Positions 10,109 through 44,374 of a DNA stretch of 64,000 bases are shown here, piece after piece. This stretch comes from an uncultured Bacilli bacterium. GTDB taxonomy: Bacteria > Bacillota_I > Bacilli_A > RF39 > UBA660. The notes under the pieces were generated by a model that worked only from the letters and a program-made list of their open reading frames with translations, made no database searches and had not been told where the DNA came from. Where the stretch lies: the NCBI GenBank assembly GCA_947589735.1, contig CANQCR010000002.1, forward strand, positions 1-64,000, in the 5' to 3' direction. Within the stretch, counting starts at the first letter, position 1, and the number at the start of each line of letters is the position of its first letter. The translations under genes and the position numbers were made by a program.

Positions 10109-11068
10109 TTAACTAACTTTTCCTTTTAATACTTTACAAATGGTTTCAATACATTTTTGTTTTTGGGATAATCTTGGATGTACATAAAGATTTAAGGTTA
10201 TATCAACACTAGCATGACCCAATAATTCACTTACAGTTTTATAATCCGTTCCTGCGCTGATACAGTTAGTGGCAAAAGTATGGCGAAGTGTATGAAACTT
10301 GAAATGATCTAGACCAATAAAATCAATTAATTTAGAAAAATAGCGACTATAAGAACGGGGTTCGATAGGTTTAAGTTTGCCAGATATTAGATAGCTATGA
10401 AGATTACTCGGTACATATTCTTTTAAAATATTTAAGATATCTTTACTAAGAGGAATATCGCGGTTGGCATTAACTGTTTTAGGCGAGGTGATGACTAATT
10501 TAGACAAAGCCTTATTTCCATCTTTAATATATATTCGCTGTATTGTTTTATTAATGGATATTGTTCCTTTTTTAAAATCGATGTCCTCCCATTTTAAAGC
10601 ACATACTTCGCCAATGCGAAGCCCTAAATATAATGATAATAAAATGCCAAGATTGCGATAATTCATATTATCAAGTAAATAATTAGTTAGAGTTACTTGT
10701 TCATCGTAAGATAATACATATAAACGATTCGCCTGTTTCTTGTTAGGATAGGCGAATGTTAAATCGATATAAGAAATGTATTTTTCACTCATCGCTTTTT
10801 TAAGGCTACTTTTAATAATGTTGGCAATATCTTTGATGGTTTTTAATGATAATCCCGCCTTTTTGTTATCAGATAAAGCTAGTAAAAAATCTTGAATTAT
10901 TTTATGGGTAATATCCTCTAAATAATATTTTCCTAGCATTGGAATAATATGGTTGAAAATATGGTTTGAGTAATTAGCATAGGTTGATTCTTTGACATAA
11001 TTTTTCTTATCTTTAAGCCATTCACATATCCAATTTTGGTAAAGTATTCTTTTTTTAAATATAATCAT
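10109..11068 (-). CDS. tyrosine recombinase / integrase
   Basis: SAM-like N-terminal core-binding domain; catalytic motifs GLRIGE, HTLRHTFATNCI, LGHASVDITLNLYVH. Start taken at MIIFKKR behind a GAAAGGAGG SD. Confidence 0.9.
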   Translation of the reverse strand: MIIFKKRILYQNWICEWLKDKKNYVKESTYANYSNHIFNHIIPMLGKYYLEDITHKIIQDFLLALSDNKKAGLSLKTIKDIANIIKSSLKKAMSEKYISYIDLTFAYPNKKQANRLYVLSYDEQVTLTNYLLDNMNYRNLGILLSLYLGLRIGEVCALKWEDIDFKKGTISINKTIQRIYIKDGNKALSKLVITSPKTVNANRDIPLSKDILNILKEYVPSNLHSYLISGKLKPIEPRSYSRYFSKLIDFIGLDHFKFHTLRHTFATNCISAGTDYKTVSELLGHASVDITLNLYVHPRLSQKQKCIETICKVLKGKVS

Positions 11069-11210
11069 ATTTCCTCCTTTCAAGGAATTTATTATATAAG
11101 AAGATTTAAAAGATTGGTGAGAGGAAAAAATTATGACATTTTTTTACAATTTACTTGTTTGCCAAATTAGAATATGTTAATATAATAATGTATAAGAAAG
11201 GAGTAAGATA

Positions 11211-14200
11211 ATGAAGAAATTATTTCGAAGTCTATTAGCTTTAGCGTTAATATTTGGTTTATATGTCCCACAAGTTTTAGCTTTCCATCCTTTATTTAAT
11301 GAACCAATTAGTATTTTAGCGGAAGCTGATAGTTTGCTAAGTACATCTTTAGAACAACCATCATTCGTTGGAACAGGTAACTTGGAACTTGATTTAAAGT
11401 TTAGTTTACCAATTAAAAATGTTGCTAATCCTAATATTAAAGTAACTCTTAAAGATAGTGCGAATGCGTCTTTTACTATCGATCTAAATGATTATCCAAC
11501 GATGACACGGGATAATTATACTTTAGGTGATCAAAAGGGCGAGTTTTCTATTCGTAAGATGGAAGTTGTTACTAAAGAAGACGGCAATATAAGCTATGAA
11601 GACGTTAAAAATGGCGTTGATAGTAGCGATGTTAAGTATTATGCGATGACCATCTATGGTTTGCGCCAAGGAACTTATAGTGTAACTTTATCTGGTAATG
11701 GTTATAAAGATTACACGGTTACTGGCATTAAACTAGATGATTACGCTAAACGTGTTACCCTTTCAAATGATCGGGGATTATTTGAAGTAGGGGATGTCAA
11801 TGGTGATAACGCTGTCGATGAAAAAGATATCGATGGTATTATTGCGCATATCGGTAGTAAAGATGCCGCAGATTTAAATAAGTATGATTTAGATCGTGAT
11901 GGCGAGATTCAAATTAACGATATGGCAATGGCAGCTTCTAGTATCAATGGTGAAGTCGAAAAAGTATCAATTGAAAATACGATGGCCATTATCAGTGCTG
12001 ATAGTTTTAGTATTGATGAATCATCAACTTCTATCGATGGCGATATAGCTGATTTATTCACGCCAGATGGAAGTGTCGGAGTTCACCCAAGTGATACCGA
12101 AGCTGAAATATCTGAGGAAAATCCGGCTGTCATTTCCCTTGATATGAAAAAGCCTGTTGAAATGGGCGAAATTAGAATTGAAACAGGACACGATAATGTG
12201 CCTGAAGAAATGACCGTTATCGTTTTAGATGAAAACGATAAGGAACACGAGTTTAAAGTTGCAAAACAACAAGTAGAAGCGATAGCGCATAAGTTTACGG
12301 ATAAGAGTAGTGAAGGTACGATTGTTGTTGACTTAGAAGGCCAAATAGCTGTTAAAAAGGTAACAATTAAAATCACGAAATCATCAGGTAAAAACTTAGC
12401 GGAAATCGCTGAAGTGGAATTCTTAAACAATGTTAAAGAAGATGTGGCTCCACCTGAAATAAATATTCCAAGTGGCTTAAAAGCTAACTTAGGTAGTGAA
12501 CAAGTAACCCTTACTTGGAATGGTATTCCAAACGTTACGGGATATGAAGTATTATTCCAAACTTTAGATACTAGTGGTAATGTCACAAAGAATGAAATCT
12601 TACAGACAACCTATACGAATTATACGGTTGAAGATTTGAAAAATTATAAAGATTATCGCGCTGCTGTAAGAGGTGTTAATGGCGATTGGAAGGGTGCCTA
12701 TAGTGCTGGAATAGATTTCCAACCCAAAGCTAGTAGAAAACCTCCAGCACCCGATATGGTTAATGTAACACCAACTTTTGCCGGTTTAGATATTAGTTGG
12801 AAAGATATGAAAGATACCTTAACCTATAATATCTATTACCGAGCTTTAGGTGCTGAAGAGTTTGAAGAAATAAGAGAATATAAAGGAACAAGTTATAAAC
12901 TACGTAACTTACTTCCATCAACAGCTTACGAAGTTTATATTTCTGGTAATAACCCAAATGGTGAAGGAGCTCGCTCATTAAAAGCTAGTGGCACGACCCT
13001 TGCTGAAGGCGCTGCTATTACCCCTCAATATAAATTAATTAATAAGCCTAATGGTGGCGATATAACTAGTCATATTAAAGAAGTTGTATCAAGTCTAGGT
13101 ACGATGTCCAACGGCGATAATACCGCTTTAGTTGATGATGATTTCCATACTTATTGGGAACATACTGATTGGCAAGTAAATGCAAGCGCTAACTATTCTT
13201 TTGGAGCACCAATAATTGTTCTAGATCAAGAATATACAATGGACCGTTTTGCTTTAACTATACCTGATTCTTACACATTTAGTTATAAGGGTGGTTCTTA
13301 TGATCCTGATAGTAGAGATTATAACGATGTTAAAGTTTTCTACTGGAGTGGTGATGATGTAAGATCAACTCAAAATAGTACAATGGTTCATGGCACATTA
13401 GAGCTAAAAAAGGATAAGAATAATCGTTCTTATTATGTTTTAAAACTTCAAAAACCAATTAAAGCTAATGCAGTTCAATTTGGTATTACCGTTGCTAATA
13501 ATAAGAGCTTAATCCAAATTAGTGAAGTAAAACTATATGAATATGATTCTATCCTTGGCGATGTTAATGCGTTATTCACGGATGACTTGCATTTAGTTTT
13601 AGCTGATGATGTTAATGAAGCTCGTCTTAAAGAGCTAGAAGAACGTCTTAATACGATTGATAAAGAAAGTGGTGAGTATCATCCAGATAAGGCTGCTATT
13701 CAAGCTGATATTGACTATGCAAGACGTATCTTAAATGATGAAGATTTAAGTAAAGAAGTTATTACGGTTAACCAAAATATAACTGCTAAAAAACATACTG
13801 GCTTTAGTCAACTTAGTGAGTTACAACCTTTAGGTATTGTTGCTCGCCCTGGTGAGACGATTACCATTTATATGGGAACTGATACGAGTGTTCGTCCACA
13901 AGTTGTCTTTACGCAGTTTTATGCCGAAGCTGGTGGATGGAATGTAACTAAAGGAACCCTTAATAAAGGCGCTAATGTTATTGAAGTACCAAAAGTAAAT
14001 TCTATGGATGTTGATAAGGGCGGCGCTGTTTATATTAAATATCCTAATCAAGCACCAACGAAAGGAACGATTAAGATTAGAGTTAGTGGTGGCGAAAGAA
14101 TACCAATGCTAGATTTATATAGTAATCTATCTGATGAAGTTGAATCTAAGGCTATTATTAGTTCTTATCTAACAGATTTAAAGAATTATGTTCAAAAAAT

Positions 14201-16391
14201 TCGGGCAACCGATGGTTTTGATGAAAATCTTAGTGTTATTAACTCAACAGAAATAGGAACTAAGAATGCGTTATTCTCTGTTCCAGCTACTAAAGTATAC
14301 GATAGTATTATAAGCGGTATTGAAGGAGATACAACCGCTCAAATTAATCGTGTTTATAATTCATTATTGGCGTTTGAAGAAATGATGACGATTTTCTATA
14401 ATCATAAGGGCTTATCTTTAACGCCAGAAGAAAGTGTTGATATGGCTCCAGCATCAAGAATTAACATTCGGGCAATGCGGATGTTTGATGGCGCATTCAT
14501 GTATGCATCTGGTGATCACATCGGTATCGGTCAGGCATCAGTACCTGGCTTAATGCAAGGTATACCAAATCAAGGTACGGGTGCTGATATGACAACAACT
14601 GGTTACTTTGGTTGGGGTATCAGCCATGAGATTGGTCACCAAATCAATCAAGGTAATTTAGCTCATGCGGAAGTTACTAACAATGTCTTTGCTTTACTTG
14701 CGCAAACAAGTGATGATAAAACCGCTCCTCGTATCGCTGATCGAATGGACCGCATTTATCAGAAAGTAACATCTAATACTTTGGGTAAAGGAACAGATGT
14801 CTTTGTTACTTTAGCAATGTATTGGCAATTACATTTAGCTTATGATGATAATTATACTTTCAGTGATACAAACTCTATCTTTGCTAAAATAAATAAAGAG
14901 AGTAGAAGAGTAAATCAAGATGAAACATTAAAGAGTATGAGTAAAGATGAACTTCTTATTGCTCTTGCTAGTAAGGCGTCTGGTTATGACCTTAGAGAAT
15001 ACTATCGTCATTGGGGCCTTGCATCAACAGAAAAAGTTGATAGTTATATTGCGGGTCTAAATCTAAAGACGGAAGAAAGACCAATCTGGTATATCAATGA
15101 TAGTGCTAGAAGATATCGAATGAATGGTGGCGCTAAAACACCAGAGACGACATCAATTACGGCTTTCTTATCTGAAGAAGATCCACAAAATAAACGTTAC
15201 ACTTTAACTTTCAATCCAATTGATGGCTCTGATAGTCGTTATATCTTGGGTTATGAAATTAAACGTAATGGTGTACCAATTATGTTTACGACGGAAACGT
15301 CATTTACAGATGTTATTGGTGCTTTAAATAATCAAGCTCTTACATATGAAGTAACAGCTTATGATATGTATTTAAAACCAACTAATACCGTTAAGTTAAA
15401 AGAAGTTAAAGTAAGACACGATGGAAGCATTAATAAAGAAGGCTTTACTATCGAGTCTAACTTCAAACATAATGGTGAAGTTGTAAGCTATGAAGATGAA
15501 AGTTTTGATAGCAAGAAATTAAGTGTTAATAATCTATTAGATGGAAAAAATAGTACCTTCATTGGTGATACGAGAATTTCTGATAAAGAAGTTGAAACAG
15601 TTGATAAGGGCGACGCTAGTATCATTATTGATTTAAATAGTGCAATGTCCGTATCAGGTATTGCTTATACGGCTGGTACTGATGAAAATGGCCTTTTAGC
15701 TAACACTATTTCTAAGTATGCTATTTATGTAAGTAAAGATCGTAATACTTGGGATAAAGTAAAAGAAGGTACATTTGTTCTAAAAGAATCTAATAATTAT
15801 AAAAATACCATTTATTTTGACAAAATAGGTACAACTGGTGGTAACCAATTATGGACTTATAATGATATATCTTATATTAAGATTGTATCTGTCGGAAATA
15901 AAAATGGTATAAGTGGTGCGGAAATAGATGTTATTGCTCCTCCAGGCGATAATGTTGAATTAGATAATGTTGGTAAATTATCCAAAGATTATAAATATCA
16001 AGGCGAAGATGGAAGTGAGAAAACAATCGAAGCTGGCTCAATTGTCTTCACAGGTAATTATCGTGGTAATCCAACTTTCAACGTTATGTTGATGGTTGAT
16101 GCTACCAATGCTGAAAAAGTCTTTGATGGTGAAAACTTCTTATTTGCTAAATTAACAGACGATGGTAGTGTTAGTGAAGTTGCTGATGGTACTTGGTTCT
16201 ATGTCGTTAGTAAAGAAACTTATGAAGATATGCGTAAAGGTAGTGTTAGAGCCGAATTATATCGGGTAAATGATCCACATACTAATGATGGTGAACGCCT
16301 TACAAGTACATCACTTTCCTTAAGTGATTTAGCAGCTTATGAAGAACTTCCAGATTTAAATATTGTTGACTCTACTAAGGAGGTTTCATAG
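11211..16391 (+). CDS. secreted M60 (enhancin-like) metallopeptidase with dockerin-like, discoidin and FN3 domains
   Basis: Signal peptide; HEIGHQINQGNLAHAEVTNN gluzincin motif; two EF-hand loops DVNGDNAVDEKD and DLDRDGEIQIND (about 11790-11955); FN3 repeats; discoidin-like segments at both ends of the catalytic region; no TM or LPXTG anchor. Confidence 0.85.
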   Translation: MKKLFRSLLALALIFGLYVPQVLAFHPLFNEPISILAEADSLLSTSLEQPSFVGTGNLELDLKFSLPIKNVANPNIKVTLKDSANASFTIDLNDYPTMTRDNYTLGDQKGEFSIRKMEVVTKEDGNISYEDVKNGVDSSDVKYYAMTIYGLRQGTYSVTLSGNGYKDYTVTGIKLDDYAKRVTLSNDRGLFEVGDVNGDNAVDEKDIDGIIAHIGSKDAADLNKYDLDRDGEIQINDMAMAASSINGEVEKVSIENTMAIISADSFSIDESSTSIDGDIADLFTPDGSVGVHPSDTEAEISEENPAVISLDMKKPVEMGEIRIETGHDNVPEEMTVIVLDENDKEHEFKVAKQQVEAIAHKFTDKSSEGTIVVDLEGQIAVKKVTIKITKSSGKNLAEIAEVEFLNNVKEDVAPPEINIPSGLKANLGSEQVTLTWNGIPNVTGYEVLFQTLDTSGNVTKNEILQTTYTNYTVEDLKNYKDYRAAVRGVNGDWKGAYSAGIDFQPKASRKPPAPDMVNVTPTFAGLDISWKDMKDTLTYNIYYRALGAEEFEEIREYKGTSYKLRNLLPSTAYEVYISGNNPNGEGARSLKASGTTLAEGAAITPQYKLINKPNGGDITSHIKEVVSSLGTMSNGDNTALVDDDFHTYWEHTDWQVNASANYSFGAPIIVLDQEYTMDRFALTIPDSYTFSYKGGSYDPDSRDYNDVKVFYWSGDDVRSTQNSTMVHGTLELKKDKNNRSYYVLKLQKPIKANAVQFGITVANNKSLIQISEVKLYEYDSILGDVNALFTDDLHLVLADDVNEARLKELEERLNTIDKESGEYHPDKAAIQADIDYARRILNDEDLSKEVITVNQNITAKKHTGFSQLSELQPLGIVARPGETITIYMGTDTSVRPQVVFTQFYAEAGGWNVTKGTLNKGANVIEVPKVNSMDVDKGGAVYIKYPNQAPTKGTIKIRVSGGERIPMLDLYSNLSDEVESKAIISSYLTDLKNYVQKIRATDGFDENLSVINSTEIGTKNALFSVPATKVYDSIISGIEGDTTAQINRVYNSLLAFEEMMTIFYNHKGLSLTPEESVDMAPASRINIRAMRMFDGAFMYASGDHIGIGQASVPGLMQGIPNQGTGADMTTTGYFGWGISHEIGHQINQGNLAHAEVTNNVFALLAQTSDDKTAPRIADRMDRIYQKVTSNTLGKGTDVFVTLAMYWQLHLAYDDNYTFSDTNSIFAKINKESRRVNQDETLKSMSKDELLIALASKASGYDLREYYRHWGLASTEKVDSYIAGLNLKTEERPIWYINDSARRYRMNGGAKTPETTSITAFLSEEDPQNKRYTLTFNPIDGSDSRYILGYEIKRNGVPIMFTTETSFTDVIGALNNQALTYEVTAYDMYLKPTNTVKLKEVKVRHDGSINKEGFTIESNFKHNGEVVSYEDESFDSKKLSVNNLLDGKNSTFIGDTRISDKEVETVDKGDASIIIDLNSAMSVSGIAYTAGTDENGLLANTISKYAIYVSKDRNTWDKVKEGTFVLKESNNYKNTIYFDKIGTTGGNQLWTYNDISYIKIVSVGNKNGISGAEIDVIAPPGDNVELDNVGKLSKDYKYQGEDGSEKTIEAGSIVFTGNYRGNPTFNVMLMVDATNAEKVFDGENFLFAKLTDDGSVSEVADGTWFYVVSKETYEDMRKGSVRAELYRVNDPHTNDGERLTSTSLSLSDLAAYEELPDLNIVDSTKEVS

Positions 16392-16392
16392 A

Positions 16393-17265
16393 ATGAAGAA
16401 AATGATGTTAACTTGCTTTGCAGTTACATCTTTCTTCCTATGCTTAATGGTTACACATGCGACAACCTTAAATCGCGAAAGTAGTAGTAATGGCGAAGTT
16501 AAATTATCCTTAACGGTTGATGAAGGATATGTTGGTGGTATTGATGTAACATTAAAAATATCAGGGGATGTAACTTATAGTAATTTTACTTGGGATACTT
16601 CATTTAGTAAGTATGTTAAGAAAAATATATATAATGAAAATAATAAAGAATTAAGCCTTTATGTCGCAACCGGTAGTACTAGTAAAAACTTAGCTAATGA
16701 TAAACGTAATATCCCACTAGGAACGATGAAAGTAAGTTCTAGTAAGGATACAAAGTACAATATTACAGTTAGCAAATTAGTTCTTACCGATATGGATTAT
16801 AAATATATTACAAAAACCGATGTAACTAATAATCCTGATAGCGAATTAACTTTTAAAAAGACGAATAGTTCTAATTCAAATAGTAACTCTAGTAGCAACT
16901 CCAATAGTAATTCTAATTCTAGTTCTAGTGGAAATAGTAGTTCTGGCTCTGGTTCTAGTTCTAGTGGAGGAACTAGTAGTGGTACAACATCAAATAGTAG
17001 TTCAACACAAAGTACAGGAAGTACATCATCTAATGCTATGAGTAGTAATTCATCATTAAATAATGATACTTTAGATGATCAAACTAGTAATACTTCCAAA
17101 GATGATACTATAACTAGTAATAGCAATAAGGAAATAGCTGAAAGTACTAAAGAAGAAAAAGATAAAAAAAGTAATAGTAACGCTATTGCGATTGTATCTT
17201 TCTGTATCTTAGTTGTCGTTGCGGCTTGTCTCATCTTATGGCGGAGTATAACCAAAACAAAATAG
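16393..17265 (+). CDS. secreted, membrane-anchored protein with probable cohesin-like domain and Ser/Asn-rich linker
   Basis: Signal peptide, ~130-aa beta-rich domain (GEVKLSLTVDEGYVGGIDVTLKISGDVTYSNFTWDTSF...), low-complexity S/N/G linker, C-terminal TM and KTK. SD AAGGAGG lies inside the end of the M60 gene. Confidence 0.7.
   Translation: MKKMMLTCFAVTSFFLCLMVTHATTLNRESSSNGEVKLSLTVDEGYVGGIDVTLKISGDVTYSNFTWDTSFSKYVKKNIYNENNKELSLYVATGSTSKNLANDKRNIPLGTMKVSSSKDTKYNITVSKLVLTDMDYKYITKTDVTNNPDSELTFKKTNSSNSNSNSSSNSNSNSNSSSSGNSSSGSGSSSSGGTSSGTTSNSSSTQSTGSTSSNAMSSNSSLNNDTLDDQTSNTSKDDTITSNSNKEIAESTKEEKDKKSNSNAIAIVSFCILVVVAACLILWRSITKTK
16860..17120 (+). repeat. low-complexity AGT/AAT-rich coding repeat (Ser/Asn linker)
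   Basis: Imperfect runs of TCT/AGT/AAT codons. Confidence 0.8.
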
Positions 17266-42672: not shown

Positions 42673-43833
42673 ATGCGAAAGATAATTTTATTTTTGTTGT
42701 TGATGTTAATAGGTACTAATGTTTATGCGAGTGGGGATACCTTCTTTTATGATAGTGAAAAAGTAAGTGATATGTGGATTACTAAAGAAAAGGGCGATGT
42801 AAAAAGATCAGCTCATCCCTATAAATTAAAAAGAAGAAGGGATAATGCTTATATTTATTGTTTGGAACCCTTTGTTCTTCTTAAAAAGGATGCGACAACC
42901 TATGTAGAAAATGCCGATTTTACAAAGTATAACTTAACTCAGGAATCACTTGATCGCATCAATTTAATCATATATTATGGCTATGGATATCGTAATCATA
43001 CTACAAATACGTGGTATGGTGTTACCCAATACTTGGTATGGCAAGAAGTTGACAAAGAAGCGGACATTTATTTTACAAGTAAAAAAGATGGTCCTAAAAA
43101 GGCACTTTATACGAAAGAAATAAATGAGATTGAGTCTTTAATTAGTGAACATAAAAAAGAAGCTAATTTTAAAGATACATATCTTTTATCTACTAATCAA
43201 ACTTTAGATATTGATAGTAATATTACTTTAGATGACTATGATATTACATCTGATATACCATATGAACAAGATGGTAATACTTTAAGAATAACTAATCCTA
43301 AAGTGGGTGAATATACTTTTCATTTAGTTAAAAAGAATAATCGTTTTAAAACAGAGTTTCAAATGTTTTATAGTAAGAATAGTCAAAATGTCATCGTTCC
43401 TGGTAATAGTCCTATTTATAATAAAGAGTATAGTTTTAAGGTTATTGTCAAAGAAGGAGAGTTAGAATTAACTAAAAAGAGTACGACAACTAATAAGTAT
43501 TTAAGTAATGCGGTATATGGCATATATCAAAACGGAGCTTTAATTACTAAAATTAAAACCGATAAAAATGGTAAGGCTAAAGCAACCCTACCATTTGGTA
43601 CATATATCATTAAAGAATTAGTTGCACCTAGTGGATATAAACTAGATAATCAAGAATACCAGATTGTTATTGGGGAGGATAAACTTAAAATAGAGCTTAA
43701 TTTATATGATGATGAAGATATCTATGAAGTACCAGATACGGGAACCAATTATGTTTTTTATAGTCATTTAGGATTAATTGTTTTAGGGGTTATAGGCCTT
43801 TTATATGTTAAGAAAAAGCATTACATGCATTAG
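42673..43833 (+). CDS. thioester-domain surface adhesin with SpaA-like domain and VPDTG sorting signal
   Basis: Signal peptide; AYIYCLEPF (Cys) and YGVTQYLVWQ (Gln) thioester motifs; SpaA-like ELTKKSTTTNKYLSNAVYGIY..GTYIIKELVAPSGY; EVPDTG-TM-KKK. Confidence 0.82.
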   Translation: MRKIILFLLLMLIGTNVYASGDTFFYDSEKVSDMWITKEKGDVKRSAHPYKLKRRRDNAYIYCLEPFVLLKKDATTYVENADFTKYNLTQESLDRINLIIYYGYGYRNHTTNTWYGVTQYLVWQEVDKEADIYFTSKKDGPKKALYTKEINEIESLISEHKKEANFKDTYLLSTNQTLDIDSNITLDDYDITSDIPYEQDGNTLRITNPKVGEYTFHLVKKNNRFKTEFQMFYSKNSQNVIVPGNSPIYNKEYSFKVIVKEGELELTKKSTTTNKYLSNAVYGIYQNGALITKIKTDKNGKAKATLPFGTYIIKELVAPSGYKLDNQEYQIVIGEDKLKIELNLYDDEDIYEVPDTGTNYVFYSHLGLIVLGVIGLLYVKKKHYMH

Positions 43834-44374
43834 TTTGTTATTTATTGGCTATGGTATTACTTTCTTTGGTATTGATTATCACGATAAATTAGAAGATATC
43901 GAAGAAAATGAATTAGAAATGGCTAAATACTTTGAAAGAAAAGTCATTCCTAAAGAAAACCCTTACGTGGCTGTTTTAGAAATACCTAAACTAAAGTTTA
44001 AAAGGGGCTTATATAAGATTAAAGATCCTAAGAGTAAGCTTGATAAAAATATTATCTTTTTAGATAAATCTGATATGCCTGATAAAGAAAATAGTAGGGT
44101 TATTATTGTAGGACATAGTGGAGCCACTAGTAATTCTTATTTTAAAAATATTCATAAATTAAAAAAGAAAGATAAAATATATTTATATTACGATAATGTA
44201 AAGTATATTTATAAAGTAACTGATCGCTATGACATTATCAAAAATGGGACTTTAGCTTTAGAGTCTAATCATGATAAGAAAACTTTAACTCTCGTTACTT
44301 GTAAAGGTAATACTAAACAATTAGTTATTATTGCAACATTAACAAAAGAAGAAAAAGAAAAAGATGCTAATTAG
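43805..44374 (+). CDS. sortase
   Basis: VIIVGHSG (His) and TLTLVTCKG (Cys); N-terminal TM; overlaps the upstream adhesin gene. Confidence 0.85.
   Translation: MLRKSITCISLLFIGYGITFFGIDYHDKLEDIEENELEMAKYFERKVIPKENPYVAVLEIPKLKFKRGLYKIKDPKSKLDKNIIFLDKSDMPDKENSRVIIVGHSGATSNSYFKNIHKLKKKDKIYLYYDNVKYIYKVTDRYDIIKNGTLALESNHDKKTLTLVTCKGNTKQLVIIATLTKEEKEKDAN

Follow-up and report, generated by a model that had tools for sequence, protein, structure and literature searches.

A membrane-anchored cohesin-like protein encoded behind an X-module-dockerin M60 peptidase as its candidate surface anchor

The window analysed here is the whole 64,000-nucleotide stretch of contig CANQCR010000002.1 (assembly GCA_947589735.1) from an uncultured Bacilli bacterium of the UBA660 lineage. 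A preliminary description of this DNA had placed two open reading frames in it, and both were recovered from the sequence at the positions it gave. The two genes and the signals around them, in window coordinates, are as follows.

11159..11186, plus strand: sigma-70-like promoter, TTGCCA-16-TATAAT, 5' of gene 1 (consensus scan, 11/12 matches)
11211..16391, plus strand: gene 1, a secreted M60 metallopeptidase of 1726 aa with X-module, dockerin, Fn3 and F5/8C domains
16377..16383, plus strand: Shine-Dalgarno sequence AAGGAGG of gene 2, within the end of gene 1 (sequence)
16393..17265, plus strand: gene 2, a membrane-anchored cohesin-like protein of 290 aa
17264..17288, plus strand: hairpin resembling an intrinsic terminator, 3' of gene 2 (scan)

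The ATG of gene 2 at 16393 lies one base past the stop of gene 1. The open reading frame list starts gene 2 at TTG 16363, a start that is unnecessary. No terminator-like hairpin was found between the two genes in the scan. Matches to the promoter-type consensus are no commoner than in shuffled sequence, so the promoter counts as weak evidence. Immediately upstream of the M60 gene, a minus-strand gene (10109-11083) encodes a tyrosine-recombinase-like protein with a counterpart in just 1 of the 80 related loci described below.

Gene 1 contains the following features.

11211..11282, plus strand: signal peptide, MKKLFRSLLALALIFGLYVPQVLA (sequence)
11373..11765, plus strand: X-like beta module, residues 55-185 (AF2 model; Foldseek X-dockerin matches; profile match spanning X-module and dockerin)
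11790..11948, plus strand: dockerin module, residues 194-246, three helices (Pfam Dockerin_1; AF2; PDB profile matches)
11793..11828, plus strand: calcium loop 1, DVNGDNAVDEKD, residues 195-206 (sequence; aligned in homologues)
11886..11921, plus strand: calcium loop 2, DLDRDGEIQIND, residues 226-237 (sequence; aligned in homologues)
14589..15017, plus strand: M60 catalytic region, residues 1127-1269 (PF13402)
14625..14639, plus strand: HEIGH zinc motif, residues 1139-1143 (motif in homologues)

The gene 1 protein matches the Pfam family Peptidase_M60 (PF13402) at 55.8 bits, with a cut-off of 25.8. The histidines and glutamate of HEIGH are invariant in homologues, as is E1154 downstream, giving the protein both the profile match and the HExxH with downstream glutamate of M60-like peptidases. 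Its other Pfam domains are M60-like_N, two Fn3 domains and two F5/8C stretches. The order along the chain is signal peptide, X-like module, dockerin, two Fn3, M60-like_N, M60 catalytic region and F5/8C, and there is no anchor at the end. Gene 1 would encode an O-glycopeptidase, presumably with mucin as its substrate. That the enzyme has no transmembrane segment, as previously proposed, was borne out by hydropathy: past the signal peptide the highest 19-residue value was 1.11 in the close ortholog L090, which is 97% identical across the M60 region and served as a proxy.

The two dockerin-type calcium loops noticed in the preliminary description are conserved at residues 195-206 and 226-237, and the second repeat is more conserved than the first among homologues. 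Against Dockerin_1 the whole protein reaches 21.7 bits, slightly below the cut-off of 22.9, and the genome search gives 28.7 bits, above it. A PDB profile search matches the N-terminus to scaffoldin X-module-dockerins over both modules. The AF2 model of this region (mean pLDDT 83.6) shows three helices after a beta module, and all 10 PDB matches found by Foldseek at E<1e-3 are X-dockerins. Gene 1 therefore carries two F-hand calcium loops with conserved ligands and a three-helix dockerin fold, preceded immediately by a beta X-module to form an X-module-dockerin dyad by both profile and fold match. Every orthologue with a complete N-terminus retains either the whole X-dockerin or, at minimum, the C-terminal part of it; because the dockerin is kept throughout this set, the loops are not a chance occurrence.

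Gene 2 has four parts.

16393..16461, plus strand: signal peptide (sequence; conserved hydrophobic N-terminus)
16462..16863, plus strand: cohesin-like domain, residues 24-157 (AF2 model and PDB matches, see below)
16864..17178, plus strand: Ser/Asn-rich linker (sequence)
17179..17241, plus strand: C-terminal transmembrane helix, then a short basic tail (hydropathy; peak 3.18 in L090)

This agrees with the beta-rich domain of about 130 residues, Ser/Asn linker and C-terminal transmembrane segment described earlier, the domain measuring 134 residues. Sequence searches of the domain in Pfam, NCBIfam and PDB yielded no informative match, and profile comparison with two other cohesin-like domains of the same genome (contigs C19 and C16, below) was equally uninformative. 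Among 13 homologues of the domain, none matched the Pfam cohesin family PF00963 up to E=10, a match that is a criterion for detecting a cohesin and not a structural one. An AF2 model built on the alignment of these 13 homologues has a mean pLDDT of 95.5. When it was searched against 350,542 PDB chains, the top 27 matches were all cohesins, and the first other fold appeared at rank 28. E-values begin at 7e-6 and TM values are moderate (0.54-0.62); the matches include type II cohesins of Acetivibrio and C. thermocellum, an Archaeoglobus cohesin and a C. perfringens module. In their order and length, the model's strands would correspond to the nine of canonical cohesins. The model and the fold search together indicate the nine-stranded beta-sandwich (jelly roll) of a cohesin, which upholds the fold previously suggested for the anchor domain.

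The two proteins also lead to the same solved structures. In two independent searches, the gene 1 and gene 2 models converged on the crystal complexes 4wi0, 4u3s, 2b59, 5g5d, 5k39, 3kcp and 4fl4. Gene 1 matches 4wi0_B, 4u3s_B, 2b59_B, 5g5d_B and 5k39_B, while the partner chains 4wi0_A, 4u3s_A, 2b59_A, 5g5d_A and 5k39_A are among the matches of gene 2. In one relative, L110, a gene-2-type domain co-occurs with other cohesin and dockerin modules: a single chain (L110 9799-11094) joins it to a Pfam cohesin (second domain, 27.7 bits, cut-off 24.1) and a Dockerin_1 module, without a membrane helix. This fusion looks like an adaptor scaffoldin beside the M60 gene. The modelled folds point to gene-2 domains as a cohesin branch that sequence profiles miss.

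The two genes travel together. Within the family, the M60 region and gene 2 each occur in the identical set of 14 out of 196 genomes, counting G161, in which gene 2 is broken by a contig end. Gene 2 lies directly 3' of the M60 gene in the 12 non-self family loci where gene 2 itself could be read at length, and the G161 fragment is placed likewise. A wider scan of the genomes of 85,488 species yielded 80 M60 loci, in uncultured Bacilli, Erysipelotrichales, Romboutsia weinsteinii, Lachnospiraceae and other Clostridia, and gene 2 immediately follows the M60 gene in every locus with room for it (78/78). For the most distant loci, the homology of gene 2 was confirmed by an iterated profile search in which no other open reading frame of the locus matched; a single 'decoy' match, in L121, was that locus's own short gene 2 frame. 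Flanking genes are mostly unrelated between loci, falling into 49 clusters across 69 loci downstream and 48 clusters across 64 loci upstream. In a phylum-wide control, gene 2 stood beside 3/3 M60 genes with an X-dockerin and 0/23 without one, the contig stopping at the gene in a few of the 23. Five of these 23 M60 proteins have a C-terminal membrane helix of their own.

Hydropathy across the wider loci found no C-terminal membrane helix in X-dockerin M60 proteins; the L160 protein exceeds the threshold at position 60 alone, just behind the N-terminus, which is probably a long or mis-started signal sequence. A membrane helix is present in 75 of 77 gene 2 proteins, the two without one being L106, in which the reading frame stops close to where the contig ends, and L110, with a dockerin at its C-terminal end. 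Six gene 2 proteins, all from Clostridia, have an LPxTG-like motif. Sortases gave five matches in the window's own genome and at least one in 89 of 99 family genomes. They are common enough in the family that their absence does not explain the membrane helix of gene 2, and the idea that the helix is used for want of a sortase in this lineage was ruled out. One sortase is encoded in the window itself, at 43805-44374 (PF04203 match 43976-44341).

We consider it likely that gene 1 and gene 2 form a dedicated cohesin-dockerin display of one enzyme and one anchor. The product of gene 1 would leave the cell as a soluble M60 O-glycopeptidase that bears an X-module-dockerin at its N-terminus along with domains of the glycan-binding type. 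Gene 2 would be translated off the same transcript, which the two genes presumably share, and then exported, its C-terminal helix holding the protein in the membrane and its cohesin-fold domain facing outward on the flexible Ser/Asn linker. The calcium-loaded dockerin would bind this domain as in type II cohesin-X-dockerin complexes, and we propose that the M60 enzyme would therefore stay on the cell surface. We infer that this binding depends on calcium and is exclusive to the pair. The preliminary description had suggested that the two proteins could form a minimal cellulosome-like display. The folds and the linkage support this in the sense of a cohesin-dockerin display but not of a cellulosome, as gene 2 has one cohesin-like domain and is not a multi-cohesin scaffoldin carrying several enzymes.

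Which part of the enzyme gene 2 recognizes can be approached through co-divergence. Among ten domain segments of the M60 protein, the dockerin ranks first in co-divergence with gene 2, and a sliding window places an Fn3 window above the dockerin windows. The co-divergence therefore does not single out the dockerin, and for this pair the test is only suggestive. The X-module-dockerin could be a structural unit of the peptidase that does not bind gene 2, with gene 2 tethering or assisting the enzyme through another domain. In favour of this, an Fn3 window co-diverges with gene 2 no less strongly than the dockerin, and a cohesin fold by itself is no proof of dockerin binding. We nevertheless regard it as unlikely: gene 2 is missing beside M60 genes without an X-dockerin, and each of the two models corresponds to one chain of the shared crystal complexes.

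A dedicated pair also has to be weighed against the other modules that the genome encodes. The search for further dockerins proposed earlier found two more in the rest of the genome, making three in all. There are also three further weak cohesin matches, scattered as single modules, which could compete with gene 2. On contig C19, a 2413-aa chain (L009 7333-14574) contains an M26-type peptidase together with a dockerin, a cohesin-like domain and two membrane helices. On contig C16, a 382-aa membrane-anchored protein (L010 3515-4663, minus strand) combines a cadherin-like domain with a weak match to cohesins, and no dockerin gene adjoins it. Across the family, 149 of 196 genomes have at least one dockerin of some kind, and six (G187, G051, G044, G020, G180 and G181) have 8 to 19 dockerin matches each; such dockerin-rich genomes may hold larger cohesin-dockerin assemblies. 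With these modules in the genome and up to 19 dockerins in some relatives, the proteins could instead belong to a shared network, the M60 dockerin binding some other cohesin of the cell and gene 2 taking up dockerin proteins other than this enzyme. We find this somewhat less probable still, since within the family gene 2 and the M60 gene either co-occur or are both absent, even though dockerins are so widespread there. That gene 2 is an unrelated surface protein, cohesin-like by convergence and kept beside the peptidase for joint expression, accords with its lack of sequence similarity to known cohesins but is very improbable given that the fold search ranks 27 cohesins ahead of any other fold and that L110 fuses a gene-2-type domain to a Pfam cohesin and a dockerin.

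The dedicated-pair reading gains from a second pair in the family, whose dockerins often lie at the C-terminus of a glucosaminidase-type protein directly followed by a membrane-anchored protein, in many cases with an N-terminal cohesin. On contig C1 (L008 3238-6764, minus strand) the anchor is a 441-aa cohesin protein, and this arrangement recurs in most family loci read. Over 63 loci, dockerin distances and anchor-domain distances correlate with a Spearman coefficient of 0.67. With the catalytic-domain distance removed, the partial Mantel r is 0.66, a value reached in 0 of 2000 permutations (maximum 0.20). Dockerins with a DLL-type helix mostly occur with one type of cohesin, and those of the DY type mostly with a shorter Ig-like domain. 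This co-divergence supports the rule that neighbours bind, albeit in a different pair from that of the M60 enzyme. Short Ig-like anchors stand beside DY-type dockerins in L056, L059, L064, L067, L068, L070, L078, L251, L266 and L276. The Pfam cohesin family did not recognize the Ig-like anchor domain in the three DY-type loci scanned; this domain may represent a cohesin that has been reduced, or else another kind of dockerin receptor.

It is tempting to generalize from the two pairs. Gut Bacilli and some Clostridia could hold surface enzymes by private, matched cohesin-dockerin locks, encoded by neighbouring genes, with specificities that co-diverge from pair to pair and with a cohesin branch invisible to profiles among them. 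The M60 and glucosaminidase pairs would then be two examples of a general strategy independent of cellulosomes, a proposition to which we give an even chance.

The module types are already known. A literature search of open-licence papers found no description of an M60-dockerin with an anchored cohesin, nor, in the papers on the systems below (PMC3267712, PMC3413522, PMC11557425, PMC12997984), any account of the private operon, of this pairing of enzyme and anchor or of the divergent cohesin branch. The type II cohesin-X-dockerin complexes (2b59, 4wi0, 4u3s, 5k39) are matched by fold in both chains, including the X-module before the dockerin, with a sequence identity of just about 8-17%. In those complexes the X-dockerin belongs to a scaffoldin or another non-M60 protein, whereas in gene 1 an enzyme carries it N-terminally. 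The anchoring scaffoldins OlpA and SdbA of C. thermocellum and ScaJ and ScaF of A. cellulolyticus likewise hold a dockerin partner by one surface-bound cohesin, SdbA and ScaF using SLH repeats as the anchor (PMC3413522). Both of the latter also belong to large cellulosome systems; gene 2, in contrast, has a membrane helix, a cohesin undetectable by profile and the neighbouring peptidase as its sole evident partner.

Cohesin-dockerin contacts between pairs of proteins, without a cellulosome and in the context of mucin degradation, are likewise known from Clostridium perfringens glycosidases, but there both modules are on enzymes and assemble enzyme with enzyme, unlike the enzyme and non-catalytic membrane anchor of the M60 pair (PMC12997984). 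The Limousia mucinolysome also organizes mucin breakdown by cohesins and dockerins in gut bacteria, with five scaffoldins, two of them with tandem cohesins, and many enzymes, where the M60 pair has one enzyme and one single-cohesin anchor (PMC12997984). Small matched pairs of this kind are possible orthogonal protein connectors. Since profiles miss this cohesin branch, gut bacteria probably use cohesin-dockerin display outside cellulosomes more often than current counts show.

A genome survey reported single-cohesin proteins with a C-terminal membrane helix, the partners of some being unclear (PMC11557425). Their overall anchor architecture is that of gene 2, but each gene 2 anchor has an evident candidate partner encoded in its own operon, which suggests how the partner-unclear proteins may find theirs. 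Surveyed M60-like/PF13402 peptidases share with gene 1 the catalytic domain, the HExxH motif and the CBM32-type (F5/8C) and Fn3 companions; just 2 of 415 had a dockerin, and the Clostridium and Bacillus proteins drawn there are marked '?-anchor', with none evident (PMC3267712). Compared with these anchor-less enzymes, the gene 1-gene 2 pair would supply an anchor in trans, and it offers a concrete way for M60 peptidases of this kind to stay on the cell surface.
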